A stretch of DNA of 38,899 nt from NCBI RefSeq assembly GCF_018069755.1, contig NZ_JAGQDE010000033.1, positions 1-38,899 of the forward strand, in the 5' to 3' direction. Positions 24,902-31,898 of this stretch are shown one piece after another (the stretch's first letter is position 1; each line of letters begins with the position of its first letter). A program made the translations under genes and the position numbers. The notes beneath the pieces were generated by a model. That model saw nothing but the letters and a program-made list of their open reading frames with translations. It was not told where the DNA came from and did no database searches. The DNA comes from Ideonella aquatica. Lineage in GTDB: Bacteria; Pseudomonadota; Gammaproteobacteria; Burkholderiales; Burkholderiaceae_C.

Positions 24902-24944
24902 CGCCTTCCTGTTCCGCCCTGCCCTGTTCCCCTTGGAGACCACC

Positions 24945-25961
24945 ATGACCCTTCGCCGCACCCTGATCGCCACGCTCGCGCTGGCCGCCCTCGCCCCGCT
25001 GGCCGCCCAGGCCCAGGACATCAAGCCGCGCCTGATCCGCTTCGGCTACGGCCTGAACGAGCAGTCCAACCAGGGCCGCGCGGTCAAGCTCTTCGCCGAG
25101 GAGGTGGAGAAGGCCTCGGGCGGCAAGATGAAGGTGCGCGCCGTCGGCGCCGCCGCGCTCGGCCCGGACACTCAGATGCAGCAGGCCCTGATCGGCGGTG
25201 CGCAGGAGATGATGGTCGGCTCCACCGCCACGCTGGTGGGCATCACCAAGGAGATGGCGCTGTGGGACACGCCCTTCCTGGTCAACAACGCCAAGGAGGC
25301 CGACGCCCTGCTGGACGGCCCGATCGGCAGCAAGGTCAAGGACAAGCTGCAGGACAAGGGCCTGGTCGGCCTGGTGTACTGGGAGAACGGTTTCCGCAAC
25401 CTCACCAACAACAAGCGGGCGGTGGCCAGGCTGGAGGATCTGGACGGCATCAAGCTGCGGGTGATGCAGAACAACGTCTTCCTGGAGAGCTTCAAGACCC
25501 TGGGCGCCAACGCGGTGCCGCTGCCCTTCTCGGAGCTGTTCTCGGCGCTCGAGACCAAGGCGGTGGACGGCCAGGAGAACCCCTACAACACCATCCTCTC
25601 CAGCAAGTTCTACGAGGTGCAGAAGTACCTCACCGTGACCAACCACGTCTACAGCCCGTGGATCGTGCTGGTCAGCAAGAAGTGGTGGGACGGCCTGAGC
25701 AAGGACGAGCAGAAGGTGCTGATGGACGCCGCGAAGAAGAGCCGCGACTTCGAGCGCCAGGACACCCGCGCCGAGGCGGCCAAGGCGCTGGATGAACTCA
25801 AGGCCAAGGGCATGCAGATCAACGAACTGACCCCCACCGAGGCCGCCCGCATGCGCGACAAGCTCACCCGCGTCAACGCCAGCATCGCCGCCAACGTGGG
25901 CATGGACCTGTGGAACGAGACCCAGGCTGCGCTGGCCACGCTGCGCAGCGGCAAGAAGTGA
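24945..25961 (+). CDS. TRAP transporter solute-binding protein (DctP type)
   Basis: The 338-aa periplasmic protein has a signal peptide ending near AAQAQ and the DctP pattern: RFGYGLNEQSNQGRAVKLFAEEV, a GALG-like AAALGPDTQM, then GLVYWENGFRNLTNNKR and a conserved arginine in GIKLRVMQN that would bind the ligand's carboxylate. Together with gntK it points to gluconate or a similar sugar acid as substrate. ATG 24945 follows GGAGA; the open frame from 24933 lacks it. It is the last gene of the gnt operon. Confidence 0.95.
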   Translation: MTLRRTLIATLALAALAPLAAQAQDIKPRLIRFGYGLNEQSNQGRAVKLFAEEVEKASGGKMKVRAVGAAALGPDTQMQQALIGGAQEMMVGSTATLVGITKEMALWDTPFLVNNAKEADALLDGPIGSKVKDKLQDKGLVGLVYWENGFRNLTNNKRAVARLEDLDGIKLRVMQNNVFLESFKTLGANAVPLPFSELFSALETKAVDGQENPYNTILSSKFYEVQKYLTVTNHVYSPWIVLVSKKWWDGLSKDEQKVLMDAAKKSRDFERQDTRAEAAKALDELKAKGMQINELTPTEAARMRDKLTRVNASIAANVGMDLWNETQAALATLRSGKK

Positions 25962-25968
25962 GGCCGGC

Positions 25969-25997
25969 GGCGCGGCCGTTCATCCGGCGGCCGCGCC
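25969..25997 (+). terminator. Hairpin after the gnt-TRAP operon
   Basis: GGCGCGGCCG (25969-25978) pairs perfectly with CGGCCGCGCC (25988-25997), giving a 10-bp stem and a 9-nt loop 8 bases after dctP. No T-run follows. The loop holds GTTCATCCG, which may also be read as the far repeat of the next promoter. Confidence 0.55.
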
Positions 25998-26063
25998 GGT
26001 CAGCCCCCGAAATCGGCGCTTCGTCGCATCCCGCTGGGCGCTGCCGACGGCGCTCCCTACAGT
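25978..26063 (+). promoter_or_regulatory. Promoter of small protein 1: TTCGTCGC-type repeats and CTACAGT
   Basis: CTTCGTCGC at 26019-26027 is followed, after exactly 29 bp, by CTACAGT at 26057-26063 (TACAGT as -10). A weaker repeat GTTCATCCG lies 41 bp further up (25978), with a degenerate one between. The -35 position holds TGGGCG, a poor match, as expected for an activator-dependent promoter. The repeat resembles the AlgR site CCGTTCGTC. Confidence 0.6.
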
Positions 26064-26100
26064 GCACTCCATCGACACCGCACTGACCCAGGAGCCCGCC

Positions 26101-26292
26101 ATGACCACCCCCGCCTTCCAAGCCTCCAGCGTGTCGGCCCGCGCCAGCTTCCTGGCCCTGGCCGCGATGATCACCGTGACGCTGCTGGCCAGCGTCGGCC
26201 AGGTGGCCGACCGTCAGTACGACGCCGCACTGCTGGCCCAGGCCACGCCCGTGCAACTGGCCGCCAGCGCCGTGCCCGCCGCCAAGGTCTGA
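26101..26292 (+). CDS. Small single-span membrane protein, copy 1 of 3
   Basis: I know of no named family. The 63-aa protein has a polar N-terminus with an arginine (SVSARAS), one hydrophobic helix of about 20 residues (FLALAAMITVTLLASVGQVA) and the segment GQVADRQYDAALLAQ shared with the other two copies. A short alanine-rich tail follows. Positive charge before the helix suggests the tail faces the periplasm. ATG 26101 follows GGAG; the in-frame GTG at 26062 is not preserved in copy 3 (GTT) and is rejected. The gene has its own promoter region and terminator. Confidence 0.8.
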   Translation: MTTPAFQASSVSARASFLALAAMITVTLLASVGQVADRQYDAALLAQATPVQLAASAVPAAKV

Positions 26293-26318
26293 ACGCCCGT
26301 CGCCCGCTCCCCCCACGA

Positions 26319-26343
26319 ATCGCCCCGGCCCCGCCGGGGCGAT
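26319..26343 (+). terminator. Terminator of small protein 1
   Basis: ATCGCCCCGGC-ccc-GCCGGGGCGAT is a perfect 11-bp stem with a 3-nt loop. It lies 27 bp after the small gene and is followed by TTGCGTT, a poor T-tract. The same GCCCCG/CGGGGC core recurs after copies 2 and 3. Confidence 0.75.
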
Positions 26344-26394
26344 TTGCGTTCAGGCTCCCGTAGCATCGCAAGCACTGCACGACCTGGAGATCCC

Positions 26395-28335
26395 ATGCGC
26401 CGCACCCTGATCGCCGCGACCCTCGCTCTGGCCCTGAGCGCCTCGGCGGGGGCCGACACCACCTCGGCCGGCCACAGCTACACCCCGCCCGAGGCCTTTG
26501 CGATGAAGGCCGACGGCGCCCTGATCAGCGCCACCGCGCCCGAGGGCGATCTGCGCATCACCCTGGTCGACCTGGCGCAGGCCAGGGATGCGGCCGACGC
26601 CGTGACCCAGGCCTGGGCCCGCGCCAAGCCAGACTTCAACCGCACGCTGGAGCTGAGCACGGCGCGCGCCCCGCGCAACGGCTGGACCGACATCCGGGTC
26701 TTCGACTACCAGACCTCCCCCAACGAGAAGCTGGCGGTGTGGGCCGCGGCGTGGCGGCCAGTGCAGGGCGAGGGCTGGCTGGTGGTGCTGGTGGAAGGCT
26801 CGCAGGCCACGCAGGAGAAGCGCGGCGCCCCGATCGGCCTGCTCATCAACAGCCTGCGGCCCAAGGGCTACGAGCGCGAACGCTTCACCGGCCGCACGCC
26901 CAAGCCGCTGACACCCGAGCGCATCGAGCAGCTCAAGGCCTTCGTCGCGCAGGGCATGCGCGAGCTGCAGGTGCCCGGCGTGGGCCTGAGCTTCATCGAC
27001 CAGGGCCGCGTAGCCTGGGCCGGCGGCCTGGGCGTGCGCCGCCTGGGCCGCCCCGAGCCGGTGGATGCCGACACGCTGTTCATGGCGGCGTCCAACACCA
27101 AGACCATGACCAGCGCACTGATGGCCCAGGCCGTGGACGCCGGCAAGCTGCGCTGGGACCAGCCGGCACAGGACGTGTACCCGCGCTTCCGGCTGGCCGA
27201 CGCCGACACCACCCGCCAGGTCGAGGTGCGCCACCTGGTCTGCGCCTGCACCGGCATGCCGCGCCAGGATCTGGACTGGCTGTTCGCCGACGCCAAGGCA
27301 CCGGCCACGGCCACCTTCGACCAACTGGCCCGCATGAAGCCCACCAGCCGCTTCGGCGAGGTCTTCCAGTACAGCAACCTGATGGTGGCTGCCGGGGGCT
27401 ACATCGCCGCCGCCGCGCTCGAACCGGCGAAGGAGGTGGGTGCCGCCTACGACCGCCAGATGCGCCAACGCCTGTTCCAGCCGCTGGGCATGACGCGCAC
27501 CACCTTCGACTATGCGCAGGCCCAGCGCGGCAACCACGCCAGCCCGCATGGCGACGACATCGACGGCATCACCCGCGTGGCCGACATGGGCCTGAACTAC
27601 ACCATCATCCCGGCGCGCCCGGCCGGCGCCGTGTGGACCAGCCCGCATGACTTTTCACGCTGGGTGCTGATGGAGCTGAACAAGGGCCGCACGCCCGAAG
27701 GCCAACCGCTGATCAGCGAGGCCAACTGGGCCGCCCGCTACCAGCCCCAGGTGATGGTGGGCGAGGATGTGCATTACGGCCTGGGCCTGCTCATCAACCG
27801 CCAGTACGGCATCCCGATCGCGTCGCACGGCGGTGACATGCTGGGTTTTCACTCCAACATGATCTGGCTGCCCGAACACCAAATGGGCCTGACCATCCTG
27901 ACCAACTCGGACGCCGGTGTGCTGCTGCGCGGTCCGCTGCTGCGCAAGTTCCTGGAACTGGTCTTCGACGGCCGGCCCGAGGCGGATGCGCAGCTGGCCG
28001 TGGCGGTGGCCAACCACCGCGCCGAGCGAGCCAAGTTCAAGGAGCTCTACACCCTGCCGGTGCCGGCCAACGCGCGCCGCGCGCTGGCCCCGGCCTACCA
28101 CCATCCCGCGCTGGGGCTGATCCGCGTGAAGCAGCGCGGCGAGCGCGTCGAGTTCCTGGCCCGCGACTGGCACAGCCAGATGGCCTGGCGCCGCAACGCC
28201 GACGGCAGCGAGAGCTACAACACCATCGACCCGGGCCTGGAGGGTACCGAGTTCGTGCGCGACGACAGCACGCGCCCGGCCGCACTGGTGCTGCGCGACG
28301 CCCAGCATGAGTACTGGCTGACGCCGCGGCGCTGA
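26395..28335 (+). CDS. Serine hydrolase, beta-lactamase fold (family S12 type)
   Basis: The 646-aa secreted protein has a signal peptide (MRRTLIAATLALALSASAGA), an N-terminal domain of about 170 aa with no recognised motif, and a beta-lactamase/esterase domain. The domain has the SxxK motif in AASNTKTMTSA, the YxN motif in FQYSNLM and an HGG motif in IASHGGDMLG. A C-terminal segment of about 120 aa follows. Enzymes of this kind act as esterases, peptidases or D-Ala hydrolases; the substrate cannot be told. ATG 26395 follows GGAGA; the frame extends upstream to 26344 without a signal. It probably has its own promoter. Confidence 0.9.
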   Translation: MRRTLIAATLALALSASAGADTTSAGHSYTPPEAFAMKADGALISATAPEGDLRITLVDLAQARDAADAVTQAWARAKPDFNRTLELSTARAPRNGWTDIRVFDYQTSPNEKLAVWAAAWRPVQGEGWLVVLVEGSQATQEKRGAPIGLLINSLRPKGYERERFTGRTPKPLTPERIEQLKAFVAQGMRELQVPGVGLSFIDQGRVAWAGGLGVRRLGRPEPVDADTLFMAASNTKTMTSALMAQAVDAGKLRWDQPAQDVYPRFRLADADTTRQVEVRHLVCACTGMPRQDLDWLFADAKAPATATFDQLARMKPTSRFGEVFQYSNLMVAAGGYIAAAALEPAKEVGAAYDRQMRQRLFQPLGMTRTTFDYAQAQRGNHASPHGDDIDGITRVADMGLNYTIIPARPAGAVWTSPHDFSRWVLMELNKGRTPEGQPLISEANWAARYQPQVMVGEDVHYGLGLLINRQYGIPIASHGGDMLGFHSNMIWLPEHQMGLTILTNSDAGVLLRGPLLRKFLELVFDGRPEADAQLAVAVANHRAERAKFKELYTLPVPANARRALAPAYHHPALGLIRVKQRGERVEFLARDWHSQMAWRRNADGSESYNTIDPGLEGTEFVRDDSTRPAALVLRDAQHEYWLTPRR

Positions 28336-28337
28336 CC

Positions 28338-28423
28338 GCTGATCCGGGCGGACGTCGATTCATCGCCCGATTCCTGCGGTTCGTCGCCCGCCGGTGGCAG
28401 GGTGCGCGGCGGCTCCCTACAGT
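28338..28423 (+). promoter_or_regulatory. Promoter of small protein 2: three 20/21-bp repeats and CTACAGT
   Basis: GCTGATCCG (28338), ATTCATCGC (28358) and GTTCGTCGC (28379) are spaced 20 and 21 bp. The last ends 29 bp before CTACAGT (28417-28423). GCGGTTCGTC matches the AlgR site CCGTTCGTC in eight of nine positions. The -35 position holds TGGCAG. Confidence 0.65.
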
Positions 28424-28460
28424 GCACTCCATCGACAACGCACTGACCCCGGAGCCCGCC

Positions 28461-28664
28461 ATGACCACCACCGCCCAGACCACTGAATTCCGCGCCACCA
28501 CCGCCCCGGCCCGCGCCGGTGTCGCGGCCCTGGCGATGGCCATCACCTTCACGCTGCTCTACAGCGTGGGCCAGGTCGCCGACCGCCAGTTCGACCAGGC
28601 CCTGCTGGCCCAGGCCGGCAGCACCCAGCTGGCAGCGCAGGCCGACAGCGCTGTGCGCAGCTGA
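28461..28664 (+). CDS. Small single-span membrane protein, copy 2 of 3
   Basis: The 67-aa protein is a paralog of copies 1 and 3. It has an N-terminus with threonines and ARAG, one helix (VAALAMAITFTLLYSVGQVA), the shared GQVADRQFDQALLAQ and a tail AGSTQLAAQADSAVRS. The leader and first codons (GTGCACTCCATCGACA...ATGACCACC) are nearly identical to copy 1, so these two copies seem the more recent pair. It lies behind the serine hydrolase gene but has its own promoter and terminator. Confidence 0.8.
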   Translation: MTTTAQTTEFRATTAPARAGVAALAMAITFTLLYSVGQVADRQFDQALLAQAGSTQLAAQADSAVRS

Positions 28665-28705
28665 GACGATCATCACTCGGGGGGGCTTCACCGGCCCACT
28701 CCTTC

Positions 28706-28727
28706 GCCCCGCTCGTCGGGGCTTTTT
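28706..28727 (+). terminator. Rho-independent terminator of small protein 2
   Basis: GCCCCG-CTCGT-CGGGGC followed by TTTTT. The T-run touches the stop codon of the convergent S41-type gene (28727-28729). Confidence 0.85.
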
Positions 28728-30187
28728 CACGCCTGTGTCAGCAGCGCCAGCGCGCGCTCCAGCGCCACGTCGCGCCCAGCAGCGATGTCGGCAAGCGACG
28801 GGGTCACCCGGTGGTCGGGCTGCAGACCGGCGTCCTCGGGCAGCGGCGCGCCCTCGGGCGGGTAGTAGCCGATCAGCGGCAGGTCGAAGCTCAGACCCGA
28901 CGCCGGCAGCCGCACGAAGAAGAAGGCCCCGCCATTGATGCCGCGCAGGTTGCCGCCGGTGGGTTCGCCCACCAACTGACCCAGGCGGTCCTGGCGCACC
29001 CGCTGCGCGAAGCCGAAGGTGGCTGAGCTGTTCGAGGCGTCCACCAGCACCGCCATCGGCTGGGTGACGCGCGCGCCGCGGGGCGCCACCGTGGTCGGCC
29101 CAGGCGGCAGCGCCAGGAAGCGCTCATCCACCGGCCGGGCCGCCTCGCCCCAGTCCCGGAAGCTGTCGTCCCAGGTGTCGAGCACTGGGTTCAGGTGGGC
29201 CGGTGTGCGGCGGTAGCGCACCAGGCGGCGCTGCGGCAGCAGGCTGGGTGCGCGCGCCAGCCGCTCGATCACCGGGTGGCCGCAGTCCAGGCCGCCTTCG
29301 TTGCCGCGCAGGTCGATCACCAGGCCGCGCGCGGCGCGATCGGCGGCCAGTTCATCCAGCCGTTCGTTGAGCCAGCCCTGCCAGTCCCAGCGGCTGTTGT
29401 AGACCGCCCAGGTGGGCATGCGCAGCAGCACCACGCCGTCGGGCCGCACGGTCCAGGTCCAGGGCGTGGCGCTCGGTGCGGGCGCCCCTGCGCTGGCCTG
29501 GGCACGGCGCTGCTCGCCGGACCAGGCCGGCAGCGCCACCGTCGTCTGCCGCCCCTGCGGCGTGCGCAGCTGCAGCCGCCAGGCGCCGCTGGCGGGTCCG
29601 CCGATCAGCAGGCCCTGCAGCACGTCGAACAGCGGCCACTGACCCTCCACCTCTTCCAGCGAGAGCTGACGCCGCGCCTTGCCCAGGTTGTGGCCGTCGA
29701 CCCGCGCCAGCGGGGCCAGCCGGCGCCACCAGTCGTCGGGCGCGAGGCCGTCGATCGCCTCGATCACGCTGCCCGGCGCCACATCCGGCTGCAGCGGCGA
29801 AGGCAGCACCACCATCTGGCCGTCCAGCCAGCGAAAACGCAGCGGCAGCCGCGTGGGCCGATCGAACAGCGCCTGGGCCACGCGCCGGGACTGGTTGGCC
29901 GGGTTGGCGAAACTGTGGCCGCAGCGCAGCGTGGCCAGCGCGCGCGCCAGGGCCAGGTAGCGCGCGGCGGCATCGGCTTCGGGCGCCGTGAACGCACGCC
30001 GGAACTGCTGCAGCACCGCCGCCAGGCTGGCCGCGTCGTGGTAGCGCAGCGCGCCCGGGTGCAGCGTGGTCAGCACCTCGGCCACGATGTCGGCATCACC
30101 GGCCAGATCGGCCAGGGGCGGGTCCGCCGCCCAGCCGGCAGTGGCGGTGGTGCCGGCCAGGGCACTGAGCAGGGTTCGGCGGCGCAT
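28727..30187 (-). CDS. S41-family (tail-specific type) peptidase-like secreted protein
   Basis: The 486-aa protein has a twin-arginine-like signal (MRRRTLLSALAGTTATAGWAA). A long N-terminal helical and PDZ-like region contains PGSVIEAIDGLAPDDWW. An S41 core follows with VIDLRGNEGG and DASNSSATFGFAQRV, where a serine of NSSAT is the likely nucleophile. The end GLQPDHRVTPSLADIAAGRDVALERAL is typical for this group. The substrate is unknown. It runs toward the terminator of small protein 2. Confidence 0.87.
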   Translation of the reverse strand: MRRRTLLSALAGTTATAGWAADPPLADLAGDADIVAEVLTTLHPGALRYHDAASLAAVLQQFRRAFTAPEADAAARYLALARALATLRCGHSFANPANQSRRVAQALFDRPTRLPLRFRWLDGQMVVLPSPLQPDVAPGSVIEAIDGLAPDDWWRRLAPLARVDGHNLGKARRQLSLEEVEGQWPLFDVLQGLLIGGPASGAWRLQLRTPQGRQTTVALPAWSGEQRRAQASAGAPAPSATPWTWTVRPDGVVLLRMPTWAVYNSRWDWQGWLNERLDELAADRAARGLVIDLRGNEGGLDCGHPVIERLARAPSLLPQRRLVRYRRTPAHLNPVLDTWDDSFRDWGEAARPVDERFLALPPGPTTVAPRGARVTQPMAVLVDASNSSATFGFAQRVRQDRLGQLVGEPTGGNLRGINGGAFFFVRLPASGLSFDLPLIGYYPPEGAPLPEDAGLQPDHRVTPSLADIAAGRDVALERALALLTQA

Positions 30188-30214
30188 CGGCCCAGTATGC
30201 GGGCCGCGCGTCGT

Positions 30215-31069
30215 TCAGCGCAAGGCGGCGGCCATCGCCTGCGCCAGCGGTGTGGTCGGCCGCTGGATCAGCGCACTCAGCGCCCGGCCGCCATCGAACA
30301 GCGCGCTCTGCGCCGCACCGGCGTCGGAGTCGGCCAACAGCGCGGCCAGCGGTGCCGGCAGGCCGGCGCCGGCCAGCGCGGCCTCGAACTCGGCCTGCGG
30401 CAGGTTCACATAGGGCACGCTGCGGCCACTCTGGCGGCTCAGCTCCGCCGCGAACTCGGTCAGCGTGTAGGCCTCGTCACCGGTCAGTTCCAGCACCGTG
30501 CCACTGGCGGGCGGGGCCAGCAGCACCGCGGCATCGGCCTCGGCATAGTCCTGGCGGGTGGCTGAGGCGATGCGGCCCTCGCCAGCCGCACCAATGAACG
30601 CACCGTGCTGCAGCGCGGGCGGCAGGCTGGCCAGGTAGTTCTCGGTGTACCAGCCGTGGCGCAGGATGGCGTGCGGCAGGCCGCTGTCGCGCAGCGCCGC
30701 TTCCGTGGCCACATGCTCGGCGGCCAGGCCCAGCGGCGAGCGGTCGGCGCGCAGCAGGCTGGTGTAGGCCAGGAAGCCCACGCCAGCGGCCCGCGCAGCG
30801 TCGATCACCGCCTGGTGCTGGGGCGCGCGGCGACCCAGTTCGCTGGAGGAGATCAGCAGCAGGCGGTCGACACCGGCCAGTGCGGCGGCCAGCGTCTCGG
30901 GGCGGTCGTAGTCGGCCTCGCGCAGCGCCACGCCCAGCGCGGCCAGGTCGGCGGCCTGGGCCGGCCGGCGCACCAGCGCGGCGATCTGCGCGGGCGGCAC
31001 GCCGCGGGCGATCAGTTGACGGATGACGAGGCGGCCGAGCTGGCCATTGGCACCGGTGACGGCGTACAT
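30215..31069 (-). CDS. qorB: NAD(P)H:quinone oxidoreductase type 2 (QorB/YtfG-like)
   Basis: The 284-aa protein is an atypical short-chain dehydrogenase of the NmrA/QorB type. It has the nucleotide motif TGANGQLGRLV at the N-terminus, the YTSLLRAD segment and LRHGWYTENYL. Such enzymes reduce quinones with NADPH in the cytoplasm. In Escherichia coli the ortholog ytfG is divergent from the HxlR gene ytfH; the same layout here strengthens the call. Confidence 0.9.
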   Translation of the reverse strand: MYAVTGANGQLGRLVIRQLIARGVPPAQIAALVRRPAQAADLAALGVALREADYDRPETLAAALAGVDRLLLISSSELGRRAPQHQAVIDAARAAGVGFLAYTSLLRADRSPLGLAAEHVATEAALRDSGLPHAILRHGWYTENYLASLPPALQHGAFIGAAGEGRIASATRQDYAEADAAVLLAPPASGTVLELTGDEAYTLTEFAAELSRQSGRSVPYVNLPQAEFEAALAGAGLPAPLAALLADSDAGAAQSALFDGGRALSALIQRPTTPLAQAMAAALR

Positions 31070-31130
31070 GGAAATCTCCTTGGGACAGGGATGGCATCGG
31101 GATGACGGAGCGGATGATGCCGATTACACT

Positions 31131-31165
31131 CACTATTCGTAAGTACATACATAAAGGTAAGTACA
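31131..31165. promoter_or_regulatory. Candidate HxlR operators between qorB and the regulator gene
   Basis: ACTATTCGTAAGT (ACT-N7-AGT) resembles the TACT-N7-AGTA operator of YodB-type HxlR regulators. The direct repeat GTAAGTACA occurs twice (31139-31147 and 31157-31165), and the second copy ends one base before the regulator ATG. Confidence 0.55.
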
Positions 31166-31166
31166 C

Positions 31167-31556
31167 ATGGCCCGACCCTCTGCTGCCCGCCGGGGCGACC
31201 TGTTCGCCGCCGAATGCCCGTCGCGCCAGGTGCTGCAGCACGTCACCAGCCGCTGGGGCGTGCTGGTGCTGGTGGCGCTGCGCTCAGGCGAGCGGCGCCG
31301 CTTCAGCGAGCTGCGGCGCGAGATCGGCGGCGTCAGCGAGAAGATGCTGGCCCAGACCCTGCAGGGCCTGGAAGGCGACGGCTTCGTCGAGCGCACCGCG
31401 CATCCGGTGGTGCCGCCGCATGTGGACTACCGGCTGACGCGTCTGGGCCTGCAGGTGGCCGGCCATGTGCATGAGCTGGCCGATTGGATCGAGGCCTCGA
31501 TGCCGGCGATCGAGCACGCGCGGGCACAGCGCGGCGCGGCCACGAGCACAGGCTGA
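31167..31556 (+). CDS. HxlR-family regulator (YtfH/QorR-like)
   Basis: The 129-aa winged-helix protein has the HxlR pattern CPSRQVLQHVTSRWGVLVLVAL, FSELRREIGGVSEKMLAQTLQGLEGDGFVER and DYRLTRLG. The single cysteine at the start (AECPS) corresponds to the redox-sensing Cys of YodB and QorR. It probably represses qorB and itself, released by quinones or thiol stress. The ATG lies directly after the second GTAAGTACA repeat, so there is hardly a leader with a ribosome site. Confidence 0.88.
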   Translation: MARPSAARRGDLFAAECPSRQVLQHVTSRWGVLVLVALRSGERRRFSELRREIGGVSEKMLAQTLQGLEGDGFVERTAHPVVPPHVDYRLTRLGLQVAGHVHELADWIEASMPAIEHARAQRGAATSTG

Positions 31557-31563
31557 GCCCGCG

Positions 31564-31648
31564 GTTCGTCTGCGCGGGATGCGCTTCGTCGCAGCTGCTT
31601 GCGGTCCGTCGCCTGCCGGTGGCGGAGGGTGGATGGGATGCCTACAGT
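31564..31648 (+). promoter_or_regulatory. Promoter of small protein 3: three 20-bp repeats and CTACAGT
   Basis: GTTCGTCTG (31564), CTTCGTCGC (31584) and GTCCGTCGC (31604) are spaced exactly 20 bp apart. The last ends 29 bp before CTACAGT (31642-31648), as in copies 1 and 2. TGGCGG stands at the -35 place. The array begins 8 bp after the HxlR gene's stop. Confidence 0.68.
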
Positions 31649-31685
31649 TCATCCCATCGACACACGCCACCCCCAGGAGAACGCC

Positions 31686-31898
31686 ATGCAAGCCACCCGC
31701 CACACCGCCGCCACCACCGAATTCCAGGCCAGCAGCGCCCAGGCGCGCGCCGGCTTCCTGGCCCTGTCCGCGGCGATCACCTTCACGCTGCTGGCCGGCA
31801 TCGGCCAGGTCGCTGACCGCCAGTATGACGATGCCGTCCTGGCCCAGCTGGCCGTGGTGCCCATGGCCGCTGTCAGCGCCGACGCGCCGCGCGGCTGA
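31686..31898 (+). CDS. Small single-span membrane protein, copy 3 of 3
   Basis: The 70-aa protein shares ATTEFxA with copy 2 and the core GFLALSAAITFTLLAGIGQVA followed by DRQYDDAVLAQ with both. Its tail (LAVVPMAAVSADAPRG) differs. AGGAGA precedes ATG 31686; the distance from CTACAGT to the ATG is 37 bp in all three genes. The most divergent copy still keeps the whole promoter layout. Confidence 0.8.
   Translation: MQATRHTAATTEFQASSAQARAGFLALSAAITFTLLAGIGQVADRQYDDAVLAQLAVVPMAAVSADAPRG

Follow-up and report, generated by a model that had tools for sequence, protein, structure and literature searches.

In Gram-positive bacteria, comCDE-type loci place the gene of a small exported peptide, a kinase gene and the gene of a LytTR regulator behind one direct-repeat promoter, and in Escherichia coli the systems YpdA/YpdB, with yhjX as target, and YehU/YehT (also called BtsS/BtsR), with yjiY as target, likewise combine a LytS-type kinase with a LytTR regulator, both targets being transporters. 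Here we compare with such systems the promoters of three short paralogous genes of Ideonella aquatica, located on the plus strand of a 38,899-bp stretch of DNA (NZ_JAGQDE010000033.1), hereafter the window, which is the whole of contig G000:C26 of a 5.17-Mb genome (G000, our own genome below). The arrangement of repeats, -10 region and start codon in these promoters constitutes a grammar that is real, conserved and specific, and that occurs far above chance beyond the window. LytTR regulators recognize two repeats of 9-11 nt with 11-13 nt between them (PMC4847170), and LytTR sites are described as adjoining a poor -35 element (PMC4847170, PMC4064291).

The three genes start with ATG at 26101, 28461 and 31686 and encode proteins of 63, 67 and 70 amino acids (aa), of which the other two are 57 and 59% identical to the product of gene 3; in a search of our own genome with the gene 3 protein, genes 1 and 2 were the sole matches at E<=10. 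A letter-by-letter check found the same order in all three promoters, namely, a TTCGTCGC-like proximal box, 29 bp, CTACAGT, 37 bp and ATG. Both distances, first noted in the original prediction, are exact in 3/3 genes, the 29 bp being counted from the proximal 8-mer. Extra boxes lie 20/21 and 40/41 bp upstream of the proximal box, spacings that agree with the repeat layout of LytTR sites. Thus, the 20/21-bp repeats that had been predicted are present, but several of their starts were one base off, and the middle or distal boxes of genes 1 and 2 are weak. In gene 3, T[TC]CGTC words stand at 31565, 31585 and 31605 (intervals of 20 and 20 bp). In gene 2, TTCATC at 28359 and TTCGTC at 28380 are 21 bp apart, and a weak CTGATC was seen by eye at 28339. 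In gene 1, TTCGTC at 26020 is preceded 41 bp upstream by TTCATC at 25979, with merely a poor GGTCAG, found by eye, between them. The stretch CTACAGTGCACTCCATCGACA has the same letters in genes 1 and 2. Each promoter has a -35-like element 18 bp from TACAGT, with 6 bp between this element and the end of the proximal box. The features are as follows.

25979..25984, plus strand: gene 1 distal box TTCATC, within CCGTTCATC, 41 bp upstream of the proximal box
26020..26027, plus strand: gene 1 proximal LytTR-like box TTCGTCGC, its end 29 bp before CTACAGT
26034..26039, plus strand: gene 1 -35-like element CTGGGC, 18 bp from TACAGT, at a position conserved in 38 promoters
26057..26074, plus strand: gene 1 -10 region, CTACAGT with the conserved CCATCG 5 bp further on
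26101..26292, plus strand: gene 1, 63 aa with a hydrophobic segment
28339..28344, plus strand: gene 2 weak distal box CTGATC, by eye
28359..28364, plus strand: gene 2 middle box TTCATC, 21 bp upstream of the proximal box
28380..28387, plus strand: gene 2 proximal box TTCGTCGC
28394..28399, plus strand: gene 2 -35-like element GTGGCA
28417..28434, plus strand: gene 2 -10 region, CTACAGT with the conserved CCATCG
28461..28664, plus strand: gene 2, 67 aa with a hydrophobic segment
31565..31570, plus strand: gene 3 distal box TTCGTC, 40 bp upstream of the proximal box
31585..31592, plus strand: gene 3 middle box TTCGTCGC, 20 bp upstream of the proximal box
31605..31612, plus strand: gene 3 proximal box TCCGTCGC
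31619..31624, plus strand: gene 3 -35-like element GTGGCG
31642..31659, plus strand: gene 3 -10 region, CTACAGT with the conserved CCATCG
31686..31898, plus strand: gene 3, 70 aa with a hydrophobic segment

The predicted likeness to LytTR sites with a period of about 21 bp was supported, since boxes of 9-11 nt at 20-21 bp match those described (PMC4847170, PMC4064291). The box found here, GC[AG]GTTC[AG]TC, is similar to the YpdB repeats GGCATTTCAT, which are 21 bp apart in the oligonucleotide printed in PMC4847170. Unlike in the YpdB and BtsR systems, up to three boxes occur here, the kinase gene is boxed too (see below), and the putative targets are multi-copy small proteins that are hydrophobic or probably exported. 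The regulator of Pseudomonas aeruginosa AlgZ/AlgR is also of the LytTR type, and its 9-bp core CCGTTCGTC is matched here in 7-8/9 positions; unlike the boxes here, AlgR sites need not be direct repeats at a set spacing (PMC4064291), and no AlgR ortholog was identified among the regulators checked.

Promoter grammar beyond the window

Agreement among the three window promoters is weak evidence, because genes and promoters alike are paralogous. CTACAGT followed by ATG occurs 15 times in our own genome versus 30 for the control, i.e. below control, and the significance of the grammar rests on a longer pattern and on comparisons across genomes. We searched the 16 genomes of the genus for CGTCGC-N26-32-CTA[AC]AGT-N3-7-CATCG, with the reversed pattern as control, and obtained 19 matches in 9 genomes versus 0 for the control. 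All 19, including the three of the window, precede small open reading frames of 54-80 aa. Three of these matches are in G015, where searches with two protein profiles, A1 and A2 (17 rows), gave nothing; A1 underestimates the family and A2 recovers more, its matches above about 1e-4 being doubtful, with several inside frames of >400 aa.

The scan of 399 genomes of the bacterial family returned 36 matches in 22 genomes versus 5 with the reversed pattern. Loci were obtained for 23 of the 25 matches outside the genus: 17 precede small proteins, two precede larger ones (frames of 147 and 260 aa) and four were judged to be noise. Among the 42 distinct matches (19 from the genus and 23 from the family), 38 have a spacer of exactly 29 bp, though 26-32 bp were permitted, and 36 of these 38 promoters precede small proteins, the two before larger proteins also keeping 29 bp. 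The four matches with another spacing are the four noise ones, namely, L130 and L131 before a 364-aa frame, L132 before a 450-aa frame, and L143, which was so classified for its 26-bp spacer and a 62-aa frame with no hydrophobic stretch by eye. The spacers of the 38 promoters are variable in sequence except mainly for nTGGC at positions 7-11 (T8 in 34, G10 in 35); other conserved bases are G6 (34) and, before CTACAGT, G25 (32), T27 (32) and C29 (38). The -35 element described as poor in the original prediction is thus better viewed as a conserved nTGGC at the -35 position, 18 bp from TACAGT. Upstream of the proximal box, [CT]TC[AG]TC was counted 13 times at 20-21 bp and 16 times at 40-42 bp in 37 promoters, many of them related and one (L143) noise, when about 0.03 per position is expected.

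A third scan, with an exact 29-bp spacer over 399 genomes of the order, gave 6 matches in 4 genomes, all of one other family (f8), and no control matches in the table. All six precede small frames of 57-106 aa whose N-terminal part is hydrophobic by eye (at L264, a 117-aa frame overlaps the small one), and four carry [CT]TCAT exactly 21 bp upstream. As this pattern had N{3,5} before CATCG and the sites of our own genome need 6, G000 yields zero by design and the scan under-counts. These scans accord with the original prediction in two respects: matches should precede members of the small-protein group, as they do in 19/19, 17/23 and 6/6 cases in genus, family and order; and the spacing should be under selection, which the exact 29 bp across genera over a variable spacer supports.

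Proteins of 50-100 aa with no database family are difficult to find, and assigning them a function is more difficult still. With the rigid signature, some small proteins overlooked by the profile are recovered and can be grouped over genera and two families, and specific two-component systems emerge as candidates for testing; the finding is more general than the window alone could show. Of the two larger-protein loci, L145 (G305:C313, genus g139) has its 29-bp promoter ahead of the 260-aa protein, and G153:C12 and G364:C555 (also genus g139, 29 bp) look like L145, their genes being outside the 23 loci examined.

The C23 kinase-regulator pair

Genes with a LytTR domain (PF04397) number five in our own genome and at least two in each of the 16 genus genomes. 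In a tree of 69 LytTR proteins from these 16 genomes, in which many rows are short and 19 forks are open, one clade, C23, has members in 14 genomes (not in G002 and G005). A relaxed pattern, GTCRC-N29/30-STAMAGT, finds four sites with CTACAGT in our own genome: those of the three window genes and one before the kinase gene of a LytTR two-component system. Ahead of the C23 kinase gene of G000 stand TCTGCAATTCATC, 21 bp, GCGGCCTGTCAC, 30 bp and CTACAGT. The regulator gene lies near 25511-26344 of G000:C23 (minus strand). Its operon also encodes a PF06580-type kinase and, between the two, a hydrophobic protein of 148 aa; in G003 and G004 the regulator gene follows the kinase gene directly. The arrangement is that of a LytS/LytTR system, a PF06580 kinase adjoining a PF00072 plus PF04397 regulator, as tested for PF06580 on the G001 kinase and for the other two domains on the G000 regulator. 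The absence of a LytTR gene from the window had led the original prediction to a regulator acting in trans, and a LytTR operon with the same promoter on another contig of the same genome fits this. The 148-aa protein (L172) between kinase and regulator is largely hydrophobic and has no Pfam match at E<=0.01; G003 and G004 have no such protein at this place in the operon.

By eye, CTACAGT with such boxes was found in 8 of the 11 genus C23 loci with upstream DNA, G006 having one clear box. With a promoter matrix built from the 38 promoters, 21 of 30 C23 kinase-regulator loci from genus and family reach a score of >=11, a cut-off picked afterwards, versus 0/30 antisense and 2/30 reversed sequences; at a cut-off of 5 the numbers are 25, 9 and 12 (n=30 each). 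L237, which had scored 0.3, was excluded from the 30 loci, as its contig begins inside the kinase frame. The kinase frame opens 3-44 nt past the -10 region with no stop in 20 of the 23 loci checked. Two members of genus g97, G211 (L239) and G346 (L252), have a small gene (84 or 88 aa) between the C23 promoter and the kinase gene, and a LytTR regulator gene follows downstream of the kinase.

C23 orthologs are separated from other LytTR regulators by score (>=346 versus <=309 bits), and by hand count 103 of 349 family genomes have one, G001 and handles above G359 being taken from their numbering as outside this set. An ortholog is present in 17 of 18 genomes with protein matches at E<=5.1e-5, a cut-off picked afterwards, versus 86 of 331 others (p=5e-9); in 25/37 versus 78/312 at E<=0.01 (p=4e-7); and in 12/15 versus 91/334 when genomes are classified by 29-bp promoter matches (p=5e-5), the noise-only genomes G121, G143 and G351 being counted among the 334. 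These p-values ignore the relatedness of the genomes and hence overstate the association. G003, which is 99% complete, has small genes with boxes and only two LytTR genes, one of C23 and one of another clade, C11.

Against NCBIfam, the top match of the C23 regulator is BtsR, which says little because a C11 regulator has the same score; a query of the C23 regulator starting a few residues late reached 143.4 bits, below the cut-off of 246 of the BtsR equivalog NF008677. Among the matches listed in a search of PDB sequences with the C23 regulator, the similarity is mostly to the receiver domain. In the literature collection searched, no paper joined LytTR and Ideonella and none was on autoregulation of LytTR promoters in betaproteobacteria, one mentioned LytTR together with Rubrivivax, and among the matches listed for small proteins, LytTR and Oxalobacteraceae no title was on this subject.

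Proposed mechanism and rival regulators

Control of the small genes by a LytTR regulator in general is well supported, if indirectly. More specifically, the three window promoters are probably activator-dependent, of the sigma-70 type and LytTR-controlled in trans, the regulator of clade C23 being the most likely one and its kinase pair probably autoregulated. From sequence we infer the binding of LytTR, the acting regulator, activation rather than repression, and autoregulation. The regulator would bind the direct repeats GC[AG]GTTC[AG]TCGC, spaced at 20-21 bp. Between the proximal copy and a degenerate -35 element (nTGGCn), itself 18 bp from TACAGT, there are 6 bp, so that a regulator bound to this copy could contact RNA polymerase. 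With a putative start 6-8 nt after TACAGT, the proximal box would be at about -43 to -50, and the other boxes roughly two and four helical turns farther out, a placement expected of an activator that touches polymerase. Selection on such a contact would be in keeping with a length of 29 bp that stays rigid although the spacer sequence varies. Since its kinase gene has the same promoter grammar, the C23 pair would probably regulate itself. If true, LytTR systems would gain a member whose targets are a defined set of small proteins.

Several observations weigh against this assignment. G002, an assembly of 1220 contigs, has seven small-protein matches and neither a C23 nor a C11 member in the tree; G060, G305 and G330 (86, 88 and 99% complete) have 29-bp promoters and no ortholog; and the 103 of 349 genomes with a C23 regulator exceed those with detectable small genes. 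Nine of the 30 kinase loci score below 11 (G010, G014, G015, G068, G132, G153, G236, G281 and G343), and all nine genomes have small-protein or promoter matches; by eye the G010 kinase has a 27-bp site, and in G068 and G281 the best, weak match does sit just before the kinase gene. On the kinase side the spacing varies from 27 to 30 bp, while that of the small genes is fixed. The TTCGTC core of the small-gene boxes fits the boxes of a sister clade, C21, better, C23 being the better fit in only 9/36 proximal and 16/36 middle boxes. By whole-box score C23 exceeds C21 in 21/36 proximal and 31/36 middle boxes, when random sequence gives 74%, and the C23 box matrix was drawn from sites found by the matrix trained on small genes. 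In our own genome the relaxed pattern mentioned above has 6 sites versus 8 for its reverse, not significant alone; the concern about random occurrence raised with the original prediction thus applies to this pattern, but not to the longer one in the genus (19 versus 0).

The core-word preference bears on the alternative that another LytTR regulator acts, either that of C21 (in our own genome, of G000:C21) or both as cross-regulated paralogous systems. C21 loci do have CTGTCGATTCGTCG-like boxes, two at an interval of 20 bp, which lie 29 or 30 bp ahead of [CT]TA[ACG]ACT, and their best matrix matches reach 12 to 32 in 8/9 loci. On the other hand, C21 sites end in ACT and not AGT; the prefix TCGA is found in 11/16 C21 boxes versus 1/72 small-gene boxes, while GCAG is found in 18/72 small-gene, 19/44 C23 and 0/16 C21 boxes; and the tree has no C21 member for G003, G004, G008 and G010, all with boxed small genes. 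C23 is favoured on its presence and promoter identity, and we regard action of C21, alone or jointly with C23, as possible but rather unlikely. In its own right, the C21 system may be autoregulated in parallel and use a box variant peculiar to it: at G000:C21 (L171), L259-L263, L178 and L182, pairs of CTGTCGATTCGTCG-like boxes head a second LytTR two-component system. C11, which was at first labelled AlgR-like, is present in 14 of the 16 genus genomes, G003 included, but has no member in G002 and G013, and none of its 14 loci has a convincing copy of the grammar, the best score of 9.0 lying before a stretch that by eye looks like tRNA; a C11 regulator that does not regulate itself could still control the small genes. 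When C11 was checked for AlgR, no AlgR was among the matches listed, and BtsR came first with a score equal to that of C23, so that the label was not confirmed. The boxes agree with the AlgR consensus CCGTTCGTC in 7-8/9 positions, none being identical, and AlgR sites are not necessarily arranged as direct repeats (PMC4064291); control by C11 or by a true AlgR ortholog appears improbable.

Binding of the boxes by a protein of another type is conceivable, as direct repeats are also used by other families, for example BldC, and the conserved DNA might be a core promoter with no activator. Both ideas strike us as very improbable, given that the far boxes about 41 bp upstream are conserved, that the grammar occurs at LytTR operons, and that the boxes agree in period and length with LytTR sites, e.g. 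GGCATTTCAT of YpdB (PMC4847170). Finally, the three window genes are paralogous and their upstream DNA is homologous, so that the shared spacing might reflect mere common ancestry of duplicated genes with no functional constraint. That explanation is hardly tenable beside a spacing of exactly 29 bp in 38/42 matches across genera over a variable spacer, and a motif that also precedes proteins missed by the profile.

Small hydrophobic proteins as probable targets

The genes behind these promoters encode fast-evolving, often multi-copy proteins of about 50-100 aa in which a hydrophobic segment is combined with a short tail at the C-terminus, and some are so diverged that size and hydrophobic segment alone unite them. 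A contig search with one protein alone found two loci only, and a relative, G001, encodes an 86%-identical protein on contig C14 (L017). In a collection of 36 small proteins, for which the 60-aa and not the 96-aa frame of L135 was used, the mean Kyte-Doolittle value of the best 17-residue segment is at least 1.79 in 36/36, and Arg or Lys lies ahead of it in 32/36; L136 is hydrophobic over most of its length. From this composition the small proteins are probably membrane-anchored or exported, both topology and export being predictions. A loose expression for a C-terminal V-x-[VI]-x-[GA]-x-R-like motif matches 15/36, and the motif is absent from all three window proteins. The f8 proteins end in VVKVSAKR, VVTVSAKR, TVLIQGKR and similar sequences, and tails of this kind may resemble TonB boxes. 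Two proteins of 104 and 106 aa, L266 (G612) and L267 (G726), carry two copies of a V-x-[VI]-x-[AG]-[KRQT]-R-like motif, and a charged stretch, e.g. LTEEQK, follows each. At the curated cut-offs of Pfam and NCBIfam, there was no match for the three window proteins or for two (Pfam) and one (NCBIfam) relatives, and none above cut-off for four and three further relatives, respectively. A plasmid collection gave 4 records, none aligning over the small genes.

The order of small gene, kinase and LytTR regulator that characterizes comCDE-type loci was seen in G211 and G346 only. In contrast to comCDE, the kinase here is of the PF06580 type (in G001), the two proteins are 84-88 aa long, and in the genome of the window the small genes are on a different contig from the kinase; the likeness is one of gene layout alone. 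That layout allows a reading in terms of feedback or peptide signalling, namely, a Burkholderiales counterpart of peptide-LytTR signalling in which an autoregulating PF06580 kinase/LytTR pair would drive diversified small exported or membrane proteins. These would in turn influence the kinase, either by modulating it in a feedback loop or by serving as signals, and what is recognized would be the V-x-[VI]-x-[GA]-x-R tail at the C-terminus of many members. We consider this scheme unlikely. It can be set beside MgrB, which is likewise a small membrane protein in a two-component regulon, that of PhoQ/PhoP (PMC8404706); unlike with MgrB, several divergent paralogs exist here, and the likeness considered is one of putative regulon membership. 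The promoter signature makes it testable whether Gram-negative bacteria pair small exported proteins with LytTR systems as Gram-positive bacteria do.

We saw no obvious link between the small genes and their neighbours in the window, which are the following.

24933-25958: DctP-type solute-binding protein
26395-28332: PF00144 serine hydrolase
28730-30187: S41 peptidase
30218-31069: NmrA-like NAD(P)-binding protein
31167-31553: HxlR-type regulator, divergent

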